Source: a virus | Strand: one strand, 5' to 3' | Length of the DNA: 41,287 bases | IMG/VR virus record: IMGVR_UViG_3300044998_000448 | Coordinates: 1 to 41,287 of that record | Shown here: one piece after another, positions 26,903 through 41,278 of the stretch | How positions within the stretch are numbered: position 1 is the first letter of the stretch | How the letters are laid out: every line of letters begins with the position of its first letter | Notes under the pieces: model-generated | What the model saw: only the letters and a program-made list of their open reading frames with translations | Told to the model about the DNA's origin: nothing | Database searches by the model: none | Made by a program: the position numbers and the translations under genes

Positions 26903-28018
26903 TTACAGGTCAACTGCACCAGCAACAGCACTGGTCGCCACAGCCACACCCCAAGCCTTCATAAGGGTAGTAGTTTGCGAAAGAGTCGACAATTCAAAGT
27001 TACCAGTCGTATTAGCAATCGTAGAACCTTCAAGGCAAAGTTTCACAATCTTTTGTGAAGCGGGTGAAACAAGGTAGAGGCGATTATTCTTTACCAAACC
27101 AAAGAAGGGGTTTTGCCAATTAGCAACCTGCGGGATTTCAATTGCATCGTAACCAAAAGCCGTTCTCATATAGCCCAAGCGGACATATTCAGAATCCAGC
27201 ATATAGCGGTAAGCAGTTCCAGCGGGCAGAACTTTATTCAAGGCAACATTCGTACCAATCACAACCGCCTTTGCACCGCCATTGAAAGCAGTAACACGCT
27301 GTGCAAGGTCAATAAATCCGTCTTGGGTGTAACCACTCAAGCGCAATCCACCAGAACCACTCACAGTCAAAGCACCCAGAGTCGCATCAAAGAGGGTGTA
27401 CGCATCCAGAGCCATCTGTGATTCGAGTGAACGAACTGCTTTGGTAATAAATTCAGCCAAAGATTCTTTGCCAGCCAAAACACGATACAGAGAAACACCA
27501 ACCGTAATCTGTCTAAATTCGGGAGTAACGGTAACAGTACCAGAAAACTGCTTGTACATTTCACCACGATTCTTTCCCATGCCCGCTTTTGAAACGGCAA
27601 ACAAATCACGGGGTTTTACTTCAAACGCAAAGGAATCACCAAATCCACCAACTCTAACATCCGTGAACATACCAATCGAATTAATTACAGAATCGGGCAA
27701 AACCATATCCACAAGGGCATTGACCACAGCAAAAGTTTCATGGACAATTAGAGGATGATTGAACCACTGCTCAACGGGATAATCACCAGCATAAGGTACA
27801 TTAGCCCGTCTTAAAATTTCTTTGCGAATTTCAGCATTCAAAATCTCTTCTTTTTCAGCAAACGAAATCCGATTACCTTCTTCATCAACCGTAGCAAAGT
27901 CGTACTGCTTGCTATTGTCAGTCAAAGACATATAATGATTCCAGTAATCAGGAAATAATTGTTTGTAAAGGCGGGTATTCCCCTTTGCAAAAGTTTCAAC
28001 ATTCAAAGGCATTTTCAT
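26903..28018 (-). CDS. Major capsid protein
   Basis: Building block of the icosahedral head, 371 aa, with probable HK97 fold. A helical N-terminal arm (about 1-70, FAKGNTRLYKQLFPDYWNHY; AEKEEILNAEIRKEILRR) is followed by EQWFNHPLIVHETFAVVNALVD, GDSFAFEVKPRDLF and a long spine-like helix (ESLAEFITKAVRSLESQMALDAY, interrupted here). The C-terminal half alternates strands and loops and ends GVAVATSAVAGAVDL. AAGGAG lies 11 bp before the ATG. Flanking protease, decoration-like gene and connector genes support the call. G+C is far above the window average (31 of 60 bases at 27241-27300), typical of highest-expressed genes. Confidence 0.85.
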   Translation of the reverse strand: MKMPLNVETFAKGNTRLYKQLFPDYWNHYMSLTDNSKQYDFATVDEEGNRISFAEKEEILNAEIRKEILRRANVPYAGDYPVEQWFNHPLIVHETFAVVNALVDMVLPDSVINSIGMFTDVRVGGFGDSFAFEVKPRDLFAVSKAGMGKNRGEMYKQFSGTVTVTPEFRQITVGVSLYRVLAGKESLAEFITKAVRSLESQMALDAYTLFDATLGALTVSGSGGLRLSGYTQDGFIDLAQRVTAFNGGAKAVVIGTNVALNKVLPAGTAYRYMLDSEYVRLGYMRTAFGYDAIEIPQVANWQNPFFGLVKNNRLYLVSPASQKIVKLCLEGSTIANTTGNFELSTLSQTTTLMKAWGVAVATSAVAGAVDL

Positions 28019-28061: not shown

Positions 28062-28577
28062 TTACTCACCGACTACCATCAGTTTGTAGGCAGTAACACG
28101 AGCGTTTTCAATTCCTCTACCAATCGAAATAAAAGTAGTTTCGACAAGTTTCAGAGAAAGACCAGCACCCTGTGAAGCACCCCAAGTCAAGAGCCAACTA
28201 CCAGCACTAGCATTAGCAAAGGTATTGCCACCAATCGCATTGCTAAAAGCATCGGCAGTTAGGGTAATAATATCACCAACTTTCGGTTTAAAAGCAGTGA
28301 ATGTTCTACCAGCGGGGACATAAAACTCACGGGGGTCAGTACCCACACGATAAATCTCGCCACTCGAATCCATCACAAAAGGAATTTCGGGAGTAGCACA
28401 CATCCACAAAGCAGTAGCCGAACCAGTAGCCACAGTAGCCGTCCAAACTCCACTAGCAGAAGTGTTCAGAGCAAACACATTCCCATTGTCAAGAGTAGAA
28501 CCAGAGACACACTCTCTCAAAAGAGCGTTCACATCGTGCGCTTGCACACTATTCAAAATCAAAACTGCATGAGCCAT
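28062..28577 (-). CDS. Putative head decoration / capsid cement protein
   Basis: A 171-aa, Ala/Gly/Ser/Thr-rich beta protein between protease/scaffold and major capsid genes, the usual place of decoration proteins. Stretches such as FVMDSSGEIYRVG, VPAGRTFTAFKPKVGDIITLTAD and RGIENARVTAYKLMVVGE fit a small beta barrel. GGAGGT precedes the ATG by 10 bp. G+C and codon use match the capsid gene and differ from most of the window, consistent with an abundant virion protein. No membrane or enzyme motif. Confidence 0.6.
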   Translation of the reverse strand: MAHAVLILNSVQAHDVNALLRECVSGSTLDNGNVFALNTSASGVWTATVATGSATALWMCATPEIPFVMDSSGEIYRVGTDPREFYVPAGRTFTAFKPKVGDIITLTADAFSNAIGGNTFANASAGSWLLTWGASQGAGLSLKLVETTFISIGRGIENARVTAYKLMVVGE

Positions 28578-28598: not shown

Positions 28599-30467
28599 TT
28601 ATTGTAGTTTTTTCCAAACAGATTTTACTTTTTTGCCATTTGCAGGCAAGCCATATTTTATTACTTCATCGGTTTCAGTATTCTTTTTTATAGCAAAATT
28701 AAAGGCTTTGGCTTTGGCTAAATTAGCCCAAGCATCAAAGTTTTCTAAAGTGTATTCACGGGACATATCTCTCAACATATCTATTTCTTCAGAAGGAATT
28801 TCAGTTTTTTCCATAATTTCTCTTAAAACTTTATCAACAGAAAAAGAAAACATTTCTCTTTCCTTTTCAGCCTTAAATTCCCTCAATTCTTTATTTTCTT
28901 TTTGAAGTTTAGCAAACATAGAAGAAAGATACTCATAGGCTTTTAATGCTTCTTCTGTATAACTACCAGATAAATAATTATAAAAATATGTTCTATATGT
29001 TTCATCTTCTAATGAGTCAAGAAAATATTTAATATCCGCATGGGCATCAAGGGACATTTTTACTTCTTCATCATTGCACATTTCTTCTGTTTCAGAAGTT
29101 TCACCTTCTTCTTTAGATTCCCCTTCCGCCGACTCCTCTGCATCATCTTCTTTCTCTGGATTCAATTCAACTTCTATTTCAACCTCAAACTTTTCAGAAT
29201 CGTCAGAATGAATAGACATCTTTTCCTCTTCTTTATCTTCTTCTAAAAGACCAAGTTTTTTGTATATATTTTCAATTTTCTTGACAACTTCTGTTTCTTC
29301 CTCTTGTTTTGCCCTTGCCAAAGCATTTGATAAACCATAGCGATTATAGACAACTTTATCTCCACGAATCTCCATAACTGGATAATGTAAAGATTGAGAG
29401 GGAGAATCTTCCCATCCTTCATCTACCTTCAGATAAACCTCTTTAACCAATTCACGATAATTTTCTGCCTTTAAAATATCCCACATTAAATCTACTTTGT
29501 CAACTTCACCCCATGCCTTATCGCTGACAGATTCAGGAGATTTATCTATTTCTAGTTTTTTGCCAGTACCCCATTCTTCTTTTGGGATAGCAAAAGTTTC
29601 AACTTCTTCTATCTTCATCAATACTCCTTTCTTATCTATCTCTTTTATTTTTGCATAAATTTGATTAACCCATTTTTCACATGCTTCCCCGCCCCTTAAA
29701 TAATAATTTATATCTTTTTTATTATTCTTTTTAAAATAATTATAAAGACTTTTAATTTTATCGGGAGTAGCAAAGATTTGTTTACAAAGATAATCTGAAT
29801 ATACCAGAGACAGACTTCTTGGATTTTTTTCCATAAATTTATATTTAGAAATAGTATCTTTAACTTCTTGTGGAATTTCAAGATTGATTTCAGAATACTT
29901 ACTAAATTTTGTTAGAATTTGTTCATAATTCTGAAATGCAAGCACTTTTAATTTTGCATCATCCACTGCTGGTGATACAAAATCTCCCAAAATACAAACC
30001 CCCGTATAAGAAAAATCAACCATTTCATAAATATTTCTTTTTTTATCAAAAGGTCTTTTTTCATTCAAAAGTAATTCAACCGAAATACTTTTTTCCCCAT
30101 TATCTCTTTTCAAAATTTGCATTAATTTTTTATTGTATAATTTCCATATTTTACCAACTACCTGCAATCCTTTTCTGCCATCTTTTAAATCTATGATTTT
30201 TCCAGAATTGGGTACAATAAATCCAGCAATGCGGTTTTCTTCTGGTAAAGAATGAGTAAAAACATCATTAAGAGAATTATCAAAATTATACACAATTGGC
30301 TTATTATAAATTGTATGAGTAGTATTTTTTAGAACTTCTTCTGAACAATAAAAACCATTATGATTTTCACCCGTTGAAAAAACCACCATTTCAACAATAG
30401 AAAATTGACCATCTTCTGAATTAATTAAATCGAGGGATTCAACTTCAAATCGTATTATTTCACCCAT
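28599..30467 (-). CDS. Prohead protease fused to scaffold
   Basis: A 622-aa multidomain head-maturation protein. Residues 1 to about 175 fit an HK97-type prohead protease: ENHNGFYCSEEVL, a His in FTHSLPEENRIAGF (His72), and a Ser in EKSISVELLLNE (Ser127/Ser129), then FSYTGVCILGDFVSPAVDDAK (broken by turns). Residues about 205-275 (PDKIKSLYNYFKKNN; GGEACEKWVNQIYAK) and about 315-405 (WGEVDKVDLMWDILKA; SLHYPVMEIRG) resemble two accessory modules often attached to such proteases. An acidic linker (about 420-465) precedes a helical scaffold-like end. The start is the ATG at 30467 with AGGTGG upstream; a GTG at 30479 overlaps that site. Confidence 0.72.
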   Translation of the reverse strand: MGEIIRFEVESLDLINSEDGQFSIVEMVVFSTGENHNGFYCSEEVLKNTTHTIYNKPIVYNFDNSLNDVFTHSLPEENRIAGFIVPNSGKIIDLKDGRKGLQVVGKIWKLYNKKLMQILKRDNGEKSISVELLLNEKRPFDKKRNIYEMVDFSYTGVCILGDFVSPAVDDAKLKVLAFQNYEQILTKFSKYSEINLEIPQEVKDTISKYKFMEKNPRSLSLVYSDYLCKQIFATPDKIKSLYNYFKKNNKKDINYYLRGGEACEKWVNQIYAKIKEIDKKGVLMKIEEVETFAIPKEEWGTGKKLEIDKSPESVSDKAWGEVDKVDLMWDILKAENYRELVKEVYLKVDEGWEDSPSQSLHYPVMEIRGDKVVYNRYGLSNALARAKQEEETEVVKKIENIYKKLGLLEEDKEEEKMSIHSDDSEKFEVEIEVELNPEKEDDAEESAEGESKEEGETSETEEMCNDEEVKMSLDAHADIKYFLDSLEDETYRTYFYNYLSGSYTEEALKAYEYLSSMFAKLQKENKELREFKAEKEREMFSFSVDKVLREIMEKTEIPSEEIDMLRDMSREYTLENFDAWANLAKAKAFNFAIKKNTETDEVIKYGLPANGKKVKSVWKKLQ

Positions 30468-30482
30468 AAAAAATCCCACCTT

Positions 30483-30713
30483 TCACTTTTTATTTTTTCC
30501 AATCCAACGGGATAATTTTAAAAAAAACTTATCTAAAATTGAAAAATGATTATATTTTTTTCTAAATAATTCATAATTAAAATATACACAGGTATTTCCA
30601 TAGAAAAAAATAGGTAAATCATATTTCTTTACTAGTTTTTTAGCATACCAGATTGGATATACCTTAACTGCACTTTGATATTCTCTATATAACTTTCCTT
30701 GAGAGTATAACAT
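30483..30713 (-). CDS. Hypothetical basic protein, 76 aa
   Basis: Unrecognised. The protein is rich in Tyr and Lys (LYREYQSAVKVYPIWYAKKL) and ends with a basic helix (LKLSRWIGKNKK). No cysteine pair or membrane segment. AAAGGA lies 6 bp before the ATG. It sits between the ferritin-like and protease genes, 13 bp and about 15 bp apart, and is clearly part of the head operon. It could be a small head-assembly factor. Confidence 0.5.
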   Translation of the reverse strand: MLYSQGKLYREYQSAVKVYPIWYAKKLVKKYDLPIFFYGNTCVYFNYELFRKKYNHFSILDKFFLKLSRWIGKNKK

Positions 30714-30726
30714 TTTATATCCTTTA

Positions 30727-31206
30727 CTAGTCAGAATATATCAATTCTAAATTATACCATTTATTTTCTGATAACTCTACTAAATCTAAAAGGCGATAAG
30801 TTTCATCTGTTTCATGTATTTGTTGTTCTATCATCTTTTTCAAAAACATTTCGGATAACGAATCTTCTTCCCTTGCCAAGTTATATATTTCAGTTAATGA
30901 GTCGGTTGTTTCTTTTTCTAAATTGAAGTAAAACATGGCTAACTCAAGTGGTGAAGTAAAGTTTATTTTCATAGAAGATACTTGTGGAACTTCTATTTCT
31001 ACATTCATGCTATCTAAAAATTCAAATATTTGTTCAGCATGGGACAATTCCTCTTTATACTGTTCATAAAACTTTTTAGATAACTTATTCATTCCTTTTG
31101 TACTTAGAAAAGAAGATATTTTTAAATAAATAAAAGAATTTTTATATTCCTTTTCCATCTGTATCATTAAACTTTTCAATAAATCAGAAACTTCATTTAT
31201 TCTCAT
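30727..31206 (-). CDS. Ferritin-like protein
   Basis: A 159-aa four-helix-bundle protein matching bacterial ferritin from end to end. Predicted iron ligands align with E. coli FtnA: Glu20 (MEKEYKNSF), Glu53 and His56 (KEELSHAEQ), Glu97 (NLEKE), and Glu127-Gln128 (IEQQ). The B-site Glu130 position of FtnA appears replaced by His131 or shifted to Glu132. The helix-B pattern FYEQYKEELSHAEQIFEFLD and the loop before FTSPLE are typical. Expected role: ferroxidase or iron storage, or redox protection. It lies between portal and protease genes, 4 bp after the portal stop, so it is late-expressed with head proteins. AAAGGA precedes the ATG by 9 bp. Whether it forms a cage or joins the virion is unknown. 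Confidence 0.8.
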   Translation of the reverse strand: MRINEVSDLLKSLMIQMEKEYKNSFIYLKISSFLSTKGMNKLSKKFYEQYKEELSHAEQIFEFLDSMNVEIEVPQVSSMKINFTSPLELAMFYFNLEKETTDSLTEIYNLAREEDSLSEMFLKKMIEQQIHETDETYRLLDLVELSENKWYNLELIYSD

Positions 31207-31210
31207 ATTA

Positions 31211-32761
31211 TTATAATCCTTTTATTAAATTATTCCCTGCTTCTCTGGTTTGAGAACCATCTTCACTCAAATCTAATTCATTTTTTTGTGGTCTGCCAAC
31301 TTTTGAAGATACTCCACCAGTTATCACTATATCATTATAACCTTTTTCTTTCGATTCTGCAAGCCACTTTTCAAGAACATGAGGATTGACTCCTAATGCA
31401 CTGGCTATTTTTTGAGGAAGAACAATTCCCTTTTCTGCAAGATTTAATGCGGTTTCCATTCTATTTTTTCGACTGATAAAATAATCATTACCTTCCAGTA
31501 AAAAGTTAAATTTGAATTTCTTTGTTCTCTTTCCAATTACATAATCTAAAAATTTCTCAAATTGAGGATAAAGAGATTGTTCAAGTATTTTACTATCCGA
31601 TTCAAAGGATAATTGACTATCTATCACATTCATCTTTTGTTGAGAAGCAAATATCAAACTGGTATTCATTCCAGAACTCGCCATAGCCGTTCTCAACCAA
31701 GAATCATACATACCGTTATTGTCATCAAAAGAAAATGCTTTCATATCTTCCAACGGAGCAGAAGATAATTTAATTGCATTTGATAAAGATTTTTGGGCAA
31801 TATTAAGAAATTCTCCAAGTGTTTTCGGATTAATAGCAATCATATCTTTGACACTGGTTTTAGTATCTTTCAGCATCGGTACTTGCCCCATGATTACTTT
31901 GGTGGCATTTGCAAAATTAATATCTTTTTGAAGTGTCCTGATTACGGGTTGATTGACAAACTCTGACATGAGTCCAGAAAAATAAGGTACACTTGCTACA
32001 AGGGAAGAATCCAATTTAAATACCCATGCTACATCGGGGGGAATATCTACCCATAAATTATAAAAAGATTTACCTCTATTCTCTGGTGAAACAGGTAAAT
32101 AATATTGCTTTATGTCTTTTCCAGAAAATAATTCATTAAATTTTTTCTTAAAAAATGGATGATAAAGATTTATGTCTACCCCAGCCTGCAAAAAGTAATA
32201 AAAATTGAATGAGATTAAAAAACCATAATCCCATGTAGAAGTGATTTTTACATAATCAAGCGGTAATTCTTGAAAAACAATTTTATCATTTTCCCTTAAA
32301 CAAAAAGCATATATTTCATTTCTCAACATCTGCTTGGTAGCAATTCTGAAATAATATTTATGGTCAAACTTATCCAAAAAGTTTGAAACAATTTTCTCAT
32401 CTCTTTGATAACTTTTTGTATTATAATCTTCTTTTTCGGCATTAGAGTAATAATTTATATCAAAGGAAAGATGACTAGCCATATAAGATAAAATTCTTTT
32501 AAAGGGCATTGAAATAATTTCAAAATTTTCAATAAAAGAACGCAACTTATCTTCATGGTTTTTAGCATCTCTTAAAGATTGATATAAATCTTCTTCTGTA
32601 GCATCCAAAGGCATAAAAGAAATATCTTTTAATCTTTGATTAAGTAAATCAGGATTTATAATCCCCGATTGGAAAATTCCCGCTAAACTTCTTGCAAAGG
32701 TAAGGGTGTCCCAAACTTCTTTTTCTGTCAACAGAATTTCGTTATTTTCATTTTCGGTCAA
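31211..32761 (-). CDS. Portal protein
   Basis: Forms the dodecameric vertex through which DNA is packaged and ejected, 516 aa. It follows the large terminase and precedes head genes. Fitting features are FEIISMPFKRILSYMASHLS near residues 80-100, LPLDYVKITSTWDYGFLISF, LIFASQQKMNVIDSQLSFESDS in the core, and a long C-terminal region ending GVSSKVGRPQKN and GSQTREAGNN, common in Firmicutes phage portals. It starts with TTG at 32761, after AAAGGAAGGG. The next in-frame Met is about 50 residues later and would remove conserved sequence, so the rare TTG start is preferred. Confidence 0.82.
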   Translation of the reverse strand: MTENENNEILLTEKEVWDTLTFARSLAGIFQSGIINPDLLNQRLKDISFMPLDATEEDLYQSLRDAKNHEDKLRSFIENFEIISMPFKRILSYMASHLSFDINYYSNAEKEDYNTKSYQRDEKIVSNFLDKFDHKYYFRIATKQMLRNEIYAFCLRENDKIVFQELPLDYVKITSTWDYGFLISFNFYYFLQAGVDINLYHPFFKKKFNELFSGKDIKQYYLPVSPENRGKSFYNLWVDIPPDVAWVFKLDSSLVASVPYFSGLMSEFVNQPVIRTLQKDINFANATKVIMGQVPMLKDTKTSVKDMIAINPKTLGEFLNIAQKSLSNAIKLSSAPLEDMKAFSFDDNNGMYDSWLRTAMASSGMNTSLIFASQQKMNVIDSQLSFESDSKILEQSLYPQFEKFLDYVIGKRTKKFKFNFLLEGNDYFISRKNRMETALNLAEKGIVLPQKIASALGVNPHVLEKWLAESKEKGYNDIVITGGVSSKVGRPQKNELDLSEDGSQTREAGNNLIKGL

Positions 32762-32779: not shown

Positions 32780-34546
32780 TTATGAAAAATAAGTAACAGA
32801 AAGTAAGGACTCCAAATCAGATTCCTCACTATCTTCTCTAATTAAACTAGAATCCAAAAAACCAGCAAAATAATTCCCCATAGCAACTGAACTATATCGG
32901 TCTTTTCTTCTAGTTGAAATCTCTTTCAGTTTCATTACACCGCTGGATAAATAAGTTAAACTTAATCCAATGGATTCATTGATAAACAAACTGGTTTGAA
33001 CATGCGGAGCAAGATAACTACTAATATTTTCATCTTTTTTCAAATCTTTTAGATAATAATCCTCTGCCGTTACTTCATCTACCAGAAAACTAAACATTCT
33101 TTTTTGAAGTTTATCTCTCATCTGTACAGCCATTTGTGCATTTCTATCAGCAGTGGCAACATAGGGAAAAATAACTTCCAAAGCATTTGTACCTGTTGTT
33201 CTAGAATACAATTCCTTATATTCTTGTGGGGACACAGCAGGGTGTGAGATAACCGTCATTGGCAAATATTCCAAACCTCTATCCGCATCTTTTGTAAGAG
33301 TACCTAACTGGTCATAAATAGTAATACCCGCATTAGATATATCCAAAACAATATAATTTGCCTCAAAATCATAGAACAATTGTTTTATACGGAGTGAAAG
33401 CAATAAAGAATTAATTCCAGAATATGATTCCATGTAGAGCAATTCCCTTATAAATCCTTTATGAGTCGGCAAAAGTCGAATAAGGGAATTAATACTTAAG
33501 TCATTTTCTTTACCGCCTCTTTGGGCTACATCGGTAGAGATAAGTCTTATCTCTCCATCTACTTTTGGAATATAAAATGGGTTTTTTCTTGGGTTTGTAA
33601 TTGTATAATCCGTAATCGGATAAAAAGCCCGCTTAATATTTCTCAACCGTTCAAACATTTTTAATTTGAAATACGAATTGCTGTTTTCCCCATAGGGAAT
33701 ATTATAATATTCCTCTAAAACAGCAACCTCATCCATTTTATCAATCTCTGATTTTAATTTTCTAATAGTCTTTATTTTATGTCTTAAAGAAACTTCATAA
33801 TCACATGCAAGAAAACCAGAATTATCACCTTTAAGCATTGCTGAAATAGTCTTTTTTGTTTCATCGTACCACCAGAGAGCCTTGTGATATGCTGATGAAA
33901 TAAAAACCTCTTTTGGTTCTTCTATTAGATGAGAATATTCTGGCAACTTAAGATAAGGTGGTTGTCTTACATAAGAAAATGGGCGGATAACAGTATCAAT
34001 CACATTCTTATCAATCAAACGAAATTCTTCATAAATCGTAAAGGTAGACCTTTTTCCACGACTACTATCCCGACTTGCTACAACCTTAATTTTACTACCA
34101 TTATGAAAATCAACTTCCCATCGGTTTAAATTTGTTGTAATATTACTGATTTCACGATACAAATTTGGATAATTATTACTTAAATCCGTAATTTTATCTA
34201 CAAGATTACCAGCCTGTTCTTTGGTTGAACTAACCACAACAATTTCTGAATTTGGATATAATACTGCTTTTGCACTTGCAAACACAGCCAGTAACCATGT
34301 TTTACCGACTGCCCGTGAAGCAATTGCTACAAAGGTATCCATAATATTCATGTAGTAAATCCAAAAAACCTGATATGGATACAATTTAATTTGAAAATAA
34401 TGTTCTATAAAACGGTGTATATTTCTTCTGTAAAAAGTTACCCAATCTATTAAACGATTTCTTTTTTCTTCTGTAATTTCAGAATGCTTTTTTATCCTTT
34501 TTCTTTTTATTCTAACAGGAAAAGTACTGGTAATTTTACCCATCAT
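32780..34546 (-). CDS. terL: Terminase large subunit
   Basis: The packaging motor: ATP-driven DNA translocation plus headful or site-specific cleavage, 588 aa. Walker A is ASRAVGKT (76-83); Walker B with catalytic glutamate is TIYEE (170-174). The RNase H-like nuclease shows Asp339 (LISTDVAQ) and Asp402 (YIVLDISNAG), with a third acidic site likely near the C-terminal RYSSVAMGNYFAGFLD. A GGGAG ribosome site precedes tandem ATGs at 34546 and 34543. Both are plausible; spacing slightly favours the second. It lies directly after the small-subunit-like gene and before portal. The gene looks intact. Confidence 0.93.
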   Translation of the reverse strand: MMGKITSTFPVRIKRKRIKKHSEITEEKRNRLIDWVTFYRRNIHRFIEHYFQIKLYPYQVFWIYYMNIMDTFVAIASRAVGKTWLLAVFASAKAVLYPNSEIVVVSSTKEQAGNLVDKITDLSNNYPNLYREISNITTNLNRWEVDFHNGSKIKVVASRDSSRGKRSTFTIYEEFRLIDKNVIDTVIRPFSYVRQPPYLKLPEYSHLIEEPKEVFISSAYHKALWWYDETKKTISAMLKGDNSGFLACDYEVSLRHKIKTIRKLKSEIDKMDEVAVLEEYYNIPYGENSNSYFKLKMFERLRNIKRAFYPITDYTITNPRKNPFYIPKVDGEIRLISTDVAQRGGKENDLSINSLIRLLPTHKGFIRELLYMESYSGINSLLLSLRIKQLFYDFEANYIVLDISNAGITIYDQLGTLTKDADRGLEYLPMTVISHPAVSPQEYKELYSRTTGTNALEVIFPYVATADRNAQMAVQMRDKLQKRMFSFLVDEVTAEDYYLKDLKKDENISSYLAPHVQTSLFINESIGLSLTYLSSGVMKLKEISTRRKDRYSSVAMGNYFAGFLDSSLIREDSEESDLESLLSVTYFS

Positions 34547-39804: not shown

Positions 39805-40458
39805 TTATTCATTTTCAAGTGTTTTAGGGTATGGTTTAGCAATGTTTTTGATTTGTTTTGCAATAGATTTATTGAGGGGAAAGAGGTATTTATATTTTAG
39901 TTTTGATTTTACAAATTCTGCGTTAGGGTCAACATTTTCTTTCAGGTAATAGATAGAAGAAGTTTTGTATTTATTATAGATGGTTTTTGTGTGATAAATT
40001 TGATTATTCAATTTAATTCTTGGTTTCTCATCGGTTGTACCGACATAAATCCAGTTATTAGCCTGATAGATTTTACCGATATGACCCTGTTCCGAATCGG
40101 CATAACTGACCAGCAATTGTATTTCTGGATAGTTTTCTTTCAGCATTTTTATACAAATAGAAAGTATTTTGGTTACGGGATTAGCATGGGTAGTAAGGGC
40201 TACTCTGGACAATTCTCTTATCTGATAATGTTTCAGGTGATACTGCTGTGCTATTTTATAATTTGAACCGTAGGCAAACACAACTGCACCGATAAATTGA
40301 CCTTTTTCCCAAACGGCAAAGTTTATACTAGCCCCTGCGGGCATTTTATGGGAATAATGCCAGTGTTCTACAGCAAATTTAGCCAATTTCCTGCTACAAA
40401 ATTCTATATGCAAGTCTTTATTTACAATCTCCAAACTATCCCATAGATTTATTAGCAT
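39805..40458 (-). CDS. mom: Mom-like DNA adenine modification protein
   Basis: Mom-family enzymes convert adenine in phage DNA to N6-(methylcarbamoyl)adenine, blocking many restriction enzymes. The 217-aa protein has the GNAT-like family signatures: AKFAVEHWHYSHKMPAG (26-42), FIGAVVFAYGSN (55-66), the RELSRVAL helix (81-88) and SYADSEQGHIGKIYQANNWI (118-137), followed by a C-terminal KYKYLFPL. The start is the ATG at 40458, since AAGGAG lies 12 bp upstream; an in-frame extension to 40539 would overlap the preceding gene by over 100 bp. It overlaps that gene by 23 bp. Substrate chemistry is inferred from phage Mu Mom. Confidence 0.82.
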   Translation of the reverse strand: MLINLWDSLEIVNKDLHIEFCSRKLAKFAVEHWHYSHKMPAGASINFAVWEKGQFIGAVVFAYGSNYKIAQQYHLKHYQIRELSRVALTTHANPVTKILSICIKMLKENYPEIQLLVSYADSEQGHIGKIYQANNWIYVGTTDEKPRIKLNNQIYHTKTIYNKYKTSSIYYLKENVDPNAEFVKSKLKYKYLFPLNKSIAKQIKNIAKPYPKTLENE

Positions 40459-41278
40459 AGGATTCAGATTCTCCTTCCATATTTTGAAATTCGTATTTAA
40501 TATTTTGAATAAGATGAACTTTAATTTCTTTCTTTGCATTCAATTTCATCTGATAAGCACAATCACTACAATATTTTCTGGAAGTTATTTTAGCGAGTCT
40601 TTTCTTGCAATTTTCGCATTCAATAATTTTTGCACCCTTATACTCCTGATAATAAGTAATTGGATTATTGTTCAATACTTTTAAAATTGCTTGAGAATCT
40701 GGATAAAAATAATTAATAATCCAAGTCTTTTTACTATAAATTGTAGGAGTAATTAAACCGTGTTTGGTCATTTCGTGCTTGTATTTTTTCCACTTCTTAA
40801 AAGATATTCTAACTTCTGCAAGCCACAAAATATCTTCTATGCTTGCATATAAATACAAATAATCTTTTATAGGGAAAGGATTTTCTTCTTTCAACCTTGT
40901 CGTATAATGCTTAAAGGCTTTGGCAAGATACAACATCATAAACAATATCCGCCTGCATTCCTCATTTTCTTTTTCTGAAAGATAATTAAACGATTCAATT
41001 ACTTCCATTTCCCACTCATTAATAAAAATTTCTCCAACTACCCTGAACCCGTGCTTTTTAGCATAAGTAATTGCACGGGTTACCTTATAAAAATGCTTTG
41101 CCTGTACATACTCATCTGTCTTTTCTAAATACTCCTCTATATTCCTTACTATTGTATTTCCTTTCAATAATTTTTCAAATAATAAAACTGCATAAAGATT
41201 AATTTCTTTTTGGGTGCGTAAAGGTTTTTCTTTTTCAATAATCTTTTTTATATAGGATTTCTCATCTAAAATTATCAT
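40436..41278 (-). CDS. Conserved phage protein with C-terminal zinc ribbon, 280 aa
   Basis: I know this architecture from other Firmicutes phages but not its function. Residues 1 to about 210 are helical, with NEWEMEVIESFNYLSEKENEEC and RRILFMMLYLAKAFKHY. A region at about 145-185 (IEDILWLAEV; KKWKKYKHEMTKHGLI) resembles a winged-helix-like DNA-binding part. The C-terminal zinc ribbon has Cys221, Cys224, Cys237 and Cys240 (CENC ... CSDC), then a basic tail. It overlaps the mom-like gene and may regulate or direct it, or act in early DNA metabolism. The gene starts 9 bases from the window edge, so its ribosome site is not visible. Confidence 0.6.
   Translation of the reverse strand: MIILDEKSYIKKIIEKEKPLRTQKEINLYAVLLFEKLLKGNTIVRNIEEYLEKTDEYVQAKHFYKVTRAITYAKKHGFRVVGEIFINEWEMEVIESFNYLSEKENEECRRILFMMLYLAKAFKHYTTRLKEENPFPIKDYLYLYASIEDILWLAEVRISFKKWKKYKHEMTKHGLITPTIYSKKTWIINYFYPDSQAILKVLNNNPITYYQEYKGAKIIECENCKKRLAKITSRKYCSDCAYQMKLNAKKEIKVHLIQNIKYEFQNMEGESESYANKSMG

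Follow-up and report, generated by a model that had tools for sequence, protein, structure and literature searches.

A predicted diiron ferritin encoded in the head-gene operon of tailed phages

Results

A ferritin gene behind the portal gene

In the window, a stretch of viral DNA of 41,287 nucleotides (IMG/VR record IMGVR_UViG_3300044998_000448), we have identified a gene located directly behind the gene of the phage portal whose product is predicted to be a ferritin of the FtnA type with a complete diiron centre. This slot is occupied by a ferritin also in related phages, where its sequence diverges in step with the portal. The gene, which had been noticed in an earlier note made from the letters alone, was confirmed as an open reading frame of 159 codons that starts with ATG and runs on the minus strand from position 31206 down to 30727. 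It is preceded on the same strand by the gene of a portal protein of 516 residues (31211..32761, PHROG 2739 portal, E 2.6e-41), and the junction sequence AAAAGGATTATAATAATATG, when read directly, places the ferritin ATG 4 bp behind the portal stop codon, as had been claimed. The last portal codons contain a Shine-Dalgarno-like AGGA (31217..31220, minus strand), 10 nt ahead of the ferritin ATG, which together with the 4-bp gap suggests that translation of both proteins is coupled.

The remaining genes of the cassette share the same orientation on the minus strand. Upstream of the portal, the large subunit of the terminase (32780..34546, 588 residues, Pfam TerL_ATPase, E 1e-7) is 36–39% identical to terminases of SPbeta-like and Thomasclavelia phages. 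Downstream, the ferritin is followed by a small open reading frame of 76 residues that is conserved in relatives (30483..30713), a prohead protease/scaffold-like protein of 626 residues with an acidic C-terminal half (28599..30479, PHROG 3313), a head protein of 171 residues (28062..28577, PHROG 4147), whose position in the cassette is that of SPbeta YonC, an annotated virion structural protein, and the major capsid protein of 371 residues (26903..28018), which is 39% identical to the annotated major capsid protein of phage PMBT24 and for which a sequence search returned no solved homologue. The earlier placement of the ferritin ahead of the protease was correct with respect to the gap, but the 76-residue frame lies between the two genes. 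In the protease-like protein, His76, Ser133 and Glu135 are invariant across 10 homologues including SPbeta YonD; since a sequence search found no solved protease homologue, we use its name as a putative one. At 281–1825 of the window, a gene for the large subunit of ribonucleotide reductase follows the C-terminal part of an intein, as assigned from the Pfam RNR barrel and intein splicing domains.

The ferritin fold

The proposed identity of the protein was borne out by sequence comparison and structure prediction. Its sequence scores 72 bits against the Pfam Ferritin profile PF00210 (E 6e-20, cut-off 24.5), and phmmer matched the ferritin of T. maritima across residues 9–147 with 50 bits; on such sequence scores, a chance match is excluded. 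An AlphaFold2 model, whose input included 18 phage sequences, was obtained with a pLDDT of 91.5 and a pTM of 0.85 and contains helices at residues 8–36, 40–66, 86–114, 116–145 and 150–158 (A–D and a short E), arranged as a four-helix bundle with a long B-C crossover and a short E helix. In a Foldseek search of the PDB, the model aligned with solved ferritins at query-normalised TM-scores of 0.83–0.92 over 143–156 alignment columns, the best matches being the ferritins of P. furiosus, M. tuberculosis (BfrB), A. fulgidus, T. maritima and Vibrio and SynFtn. The 50 best structural matches listed were Ftn/BfrB ferritins, hence metal-binding proteins and not the non-metal helical head protein that would, according to the earlier note, have refuted the assignment. 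A profile of the phage ferritins in turn detected PDB ferritins at E about 1e-29, with A. fulgidus as best hit. Judged from sequence and model, the protein is a true FtnA-type ferritin.

Two further assignments were considered and rejected. A Dps protein would have an inter-subunit ferroxidase site and a helix in the BC loop, whereas the ligands found here form an intra-chain set of Ftn, and the B-C crossover (67–85) of the model is devoid of a helix. A protein of the EncFtn/Flp type would have a short Flp-type chain, whereas the single chain of 159 residues adopts a classical ferritin fold in the model, and its best-ranked structural matches are classical ferritins. The relatives share a conserved C-terminal stretch (VLFDATF-like, LWDASL-like), which could be viewed as a dedicated head-docking peptide as in encapsulin cargo. 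This stretch overlaps with the predicted helix 150–158 that follows helix D and resembles the ordinary short E helix of ferritins, which makes an ordinary C-terminus the simpler account; due to this resemblance, the helix does not demonstrate a dedicated docking element. In a search of BFVD, Foldseek returned weak scores for four proteins of uncultured Caudovirales (A0A6J7WIS1, A0A6J7XDU5, A0A6J7WVS4 and A0A6J5RFH1; 290–622 residues, named 'Prohead protease' or 'Dps'), which possibly contain ferritin/Dps-like domains fused to head proteins.

The diiron centre

In an alignment with E. coli FtnA, whose reference sequence was checked against PDB 1eum, the window residues E20, Y27, E53, H56, E97, Q129 and E132 correspond to FtnA E17, Y24, E50, H53, E94, Q127 and E130. 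Among the ligands listed in the earlier note, E20, E53, H56 and E97 stand, but the conserved glutamine is Q129 instead of Q128. The presumed exchange of FtnA Glu130 for His131 was off by one, as Glu130 is retained in E132 whereas H131 occupies the position of FtnA E129. Latter is part of the third iron site C (FtnA E49, E126 and E129), of which the window protein keeps E52, with Q128 and H131 replacing the other two residues. Although typical of FtnA, this site is not a prerequisite for membership in the ferritin family. By alignment, none of the diiron ferroxidase residues is missing, and drift is confined to the accessory third site. Only nine columns are invariant in the 18 full-length intact copies (E20, N23, Y27, E53, H56, E97, T100, Q129 and E132), and the finding of all seven diiron residues among them has a hypergeometric chance of about 9e-11, a statistic that ignores relatedness. 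The ligands are thus preserved throughout these copies, unlike the residues of site C, which vary among intact phage ferritins. Bundle, E helix and the seven diiron residues are alike in the non-heme ferritins of bacteria and archaea (T. maritima, P. furiosus, A. fulgidus and M. tuberculosis BfrB), from which the window protein is distinguished by its context in a phage head operon, its separate clade, a shorter C-terminus and the drifted third site (E126 to Q128, E129 to H131).

The same slot in related phages

Relatives were gathered by searches with the terminase large subunit and the portal, followed by a portal scan and gene mapping, and distinct cassettes were defined by clustering of portals at 95%. 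In this sample, which is biased to relatives of the window portal and whose counts are no frequencies in nature, 19 distinct cassettes contain an intact ferritin, seven a degenerate protein and 13 neither of them, while 15 could not be scored, mostly for reason of a contig end or a protease that was not recognised. An intact ferritin is thus found in the portal-protease gap, where the earlier note had suggested to look for it, in 19 of the 39 scorable cassettes, at a distance of 3–1169 bp behind the portal and, on contigs that extend far enough, ahead of the protease. The general order comprises the portal, sometimes at least one extra open reading frame, the ferritin, usually a small open reading frame, the protease/scaffold protein, a head protein of 170–190 residues and the major capsid protein.

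The family surfaced only by way of the terminase and portal searches and the inspection of the gap, as tblastn with the window ferritin alone detected in phage records almost nothing beyond bacterial fragments and a distant copy in phage phiLo. It also missed a 157-residue frame in the gap of loci L006 and L007, which scores 60–64 bits against Pfam Ferritin. Scans of IMG/VR with the degenerate group and with ferritin alignments recovered few loci, and prevalence was therefore counted from the portal scan. When the proteins of the window, L006, L031 and L078 were used to search 50,697 phage records, none of the isolates was found to encode an intact ferritin in the head slot. When the slot frames of cassettes scored as lacking a ferritin were inspected for hidden ones, none was found except for a weak candidate in L099, and the slot is without ferritin in SPbeta and Lysinibacillus LC76P1 relatives. 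In several loci, homing-endonuclease-like frames are inserted around the portal (L051 6600–7292, L033 3612–4385, L006 6248–7408 and L007 5260–6468), which were judged by eye to be of the GIY-YIG or zinc-ribbon type.

A small frame of 60–85 residues is located between portal or ferritin and protease in most cassettes, irrespective of the presence of a ferritin (examples being L006 10012–10209 and L093 7659–7871). It is annotated as DUF5659 in phage TR-TP1, and SPbeta contains neither this frame nor a ferritin in the slot. In phage T4, the prohead core proteins gp67 and gp68 are encoded between the portal (gp20) and the prohead protease (gp21). By analogy, the small frame is a possible positional counterpart of gp67, whereas the likeness of the window ferritin to gp67/gp68 concerns gene position only and no homology in sequence is claimed.

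Descent and selection

In a phylogenetic tree whose cellular side consists of eight sequences only, the 18 phage ferritins form one clade apart from the eight cellular ferritins (support 100/99). The family is diverse, with a mean pairwise identity of 35% among 16 of the 18 full-length intact copies and of about 21% in the least similar pair. Distances between ferritins correlate with those between portals (r 0.63, a value reached in none of 10,000 permutations) and similarly with those of protease (0.65) and capsid (0.71), while the correlation with the terminase is weak (0.19). In the close pairs that were examined, dN/dS is about 0.08 among L006, L007 and L064 and 0.24 for L041/L052. The recurrence of the slot and the divergence in step with the portal support the earlier grouping of the gene with those of the virion. 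As best reading of these sequence relationships, the ferritin would have been recruited long ago into the head-assembly operon of one lineage of tailed phages, distant relatives of SPbeta, and would since have been inherited with the portal.

A lineage without iron ligands

In a second group, the slot holds a degenerate protein of roughly 166–174 residues, which is found in the phages Thomasclavelia TR-TP1, Enterocloster PMBT24, CB473P1 and CB457P1, in the fecal contig MT838494 and in the IMG/VR loci L063, L067 and L084/L085. Nearly all seven diiron positions are lost, with a histidine at the position of H53 remaining in one alignment. The protein of L067 scores 33.5 bits against Pfam Ferritin, which is above the cut-off, and its model, from an alignment that included intact phage ferritins, has a pLDDT of 90 and TM-scores of 0.84–0.91 to ferritins. 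Homology of the degenerate proteins to ferritin is thus supported by sequence and model. They constitute a clade of their own (support 100/100), which may be either a sister that has lost the iron site or the result of a separate recruitment. Ligand-free members are under purifying selection (L015/L017 and L018/L084). That a lineage infecting anaerobic gut Clostridia has a ferritin-fold protein devoid of the iron site in this slot points to a second function in head assembly, which would be non-catalytic. The proteins annotated as 'Ferritin' (ORF39) in PMBT24 and as 'Ferritin domain-containing protein' in TR-TP1 belong to this group and share slot and fold family with the window protein but not its iron ligands. 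In the report on PMBT24, 'ferritin (ORF39)' is listed merely under other functions, and the part of its text that was found contains no comment on the missing iron site or the conserved position (PMC11035940).

Role of the ferritin

Given the complete diiron centre, binding and oxidation of Fe(II) is the most likely activity of the window ferritin. Translated next to the portal and among head proteins, it is probably incorporated in or near the procapsid or acts on it, where it would hold or oxidise iron and so spare the packaged DNA or the assembling head from damage by Fe(II) and peroxide. Alternatively, within the same scheme, the particle would carry iron together with the ferritin enzyme. 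In one lineage, the head ferritin would have turned structural. Gene position, long co-inheritance and the existence of one ligand-free lineage argue for a protein that is used by the process of head assembly instead of being merely parked in its operon, whereas the invariant diiron centre argues for iron oxidation or binding as part of the function in most members including that of the window. The 13 related cassettes without ferritin imply that head assembly does not in general depend on the protein. Ferroxidase activity, oligomeric assembly, location in the virion and protective role are predicted features, and it is gene position and co-inheritance that would point to the association with the virion. 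Head operons can also encode soluble accessory proteins, which counts against a role in the head. On balance, we assign an even chance to a ferritin that has ferroxidase activity and is a head protein, either internal or close to the portal. More tentatively, and with clearly lower confidence, we propose that the lineage builds a working ferritin into its capsid as prohead core or internal protein, turning the particle into an iron-handling compartment, and that in one gut lineage this ferritin has become a structural core protein devoid of iron.

The strongest competing explanation, which we consider possible but doubtful, assumes a soluble ferritin that is produced late in infection and acts in the host cytoplasm to mop up Fe(II) and peroxide while the cell is dismantled, with the head operon providing only timing and dose of expression. 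Such a role would fit the complete ferroxidase centre, the ordinary fold including its short E helix and the absence of the gene from many relatives, and it has precedents in phage Dps and ferritin-like proteins with presumed roles in stress (PMC8008677, PMC6669764). Yet accessory genes are usually mobile, while the phage ferritins keep to one slot, form one clade and diverge with the portal, and the retention of fold and slot without the iron site in another clade is hard to explain by iron chemistry alone. This ligand-free clade, which keeps the fold under purifying selection, would be accounted for by a purely structural head-assembly protein, in which a bound metal would do no more than stabilise the bundle, without any processing of iron. 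In the case of the intact proteins, we regard such a function as improbable, because a structural metal would not require the exact diiron set, whereas all its residues, including the equivalents of Tyr24 and Gln127, are invariant while most positions drift.

Very unlikely, in our view, is a ferritin that provides a different phage enzyme with iron, above all the Mom-like DNA-modification protein encoded at 39805–40539 of the window (Pfam Mom, E 8e-47), as the earlier note had considered. Iron may play a part in Mom chemistry. Among long records (90 kb or more), Mom is found in two of two with an intact head ferritin, namely the 93-kb contig holding the window cassette and the 90-kb record G105 behind locus L027 (Mom at 81042–81566), and in none of 12 with a degenerate ferritin (six) or without ferritin (six), an association counted by hand with a Fisher probability of about 0.01. 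However, the two positive genomes were noticed after the fact and are non-independent, most contigs with an intact ferritin are fragments that could not be scored, and ferritins store iron and do not deliver it to a chosen enzyme, a supply that would also not need the portal-protease slot. Coming from two genomes, the association amounts to a weak lead and does not show that iron is supplied.

An assembly chimera or host contamination, which the ubiquity of ferritins in cells and the bacterial origin of three 'Bacteriophage sp.' records matching the query might have suggested, is refuted by three records (window, L002 and L091) that share both the gene and its operon and by the recurrence of the slot in dozens of contigs from phages, isolated ones among them. 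The three matching records from human faeces (L010, L019 and L020; MT836766.1, MT839617.1 and MT838998.1, 'UNVERIFIED: Bacteriophage sp.') contain ordinary bacterial ferritins next to genes of two-component systems, thioredoxin reductase and similar proteins and are most likely bacterial fragments and not phages. The window cassette is also found at 99.94% DNA identity in the 92,997-bp contig BPGB01000006.1 (L091, L101–L103), which is binned in the Woesearchaeota MAG KatS3mg002. We consider an archaeal host as unlikely since the phage encodes a GH25 lysozyme, which speaks for a bacterial host and for an error in the binning of the contig.

Discussion

Phage genes of the ferritin superfamily are already known in the form of Dps, Mn-catalase and occasional 'ferritin' annotations, and a ferritin is also encoded by giant viruses (PMC7136201). 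The Dps and Mn-catalase proteins of Gratiaviridae (PMC8008677) and Lactobacillus phages (PMC6669764), for which a role in oxidative stress was proposed, belong to the same superfamily but to different families than the window protein, and the Lactobacillus phage gene is located near replication genes instead of the portal-protease slot. The putative ferritin of the Thermus phage phiLo is a homologue in a structural gene region with 26% identity but, unlike the window copy behind the portal, it is found near baseplate and tail genes. Its annotated start (L009 7983–8489) omits the glutamate of helix A, which is restored by an upstream start. In encapsulin systems, a cargo protein of the ferritin superfamily (EncFtn/Flp, IMEF) is likewise encoded beside a shell of HK97-type lineage (PMC8346489), whereas the window encodes a classical full ferritin chain and not the decameric Flp type, and neither an encapsulin shell nor a known cargo-loading peptide was identified for it. 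Among open-licence PMC papers, none was found that describes a conserved ferritin between portal and protease, the invariance of its ferroxidase centre or the lineage devoid of ligands, and the search yielded neither virion proteomics nor iron assays or oligomer data for such a protein.

Whereas phage proteins of the ferritin family have so far been seen as sporadic genes of stress response or metabolism, our results describe a complete diiron ferritin of predicted activity as a long-term resident of a head operon that is inherited with the portal. The presence of the degenerate form in the cultured gut phages PMBT24 and TR-TP1 now opens a role in the head to virion proteomics. If the ferritin were part of the particle, phages would carry and deliver ferritin iron, which would bear on viral iron cycling and on the origin of encapsulin-ferritin compartments from HK97-type phage capsids, and if a working ferritin were indeed built into the capsid, the particle would be the phage counterpart of ferritin-loaded encapsulins.
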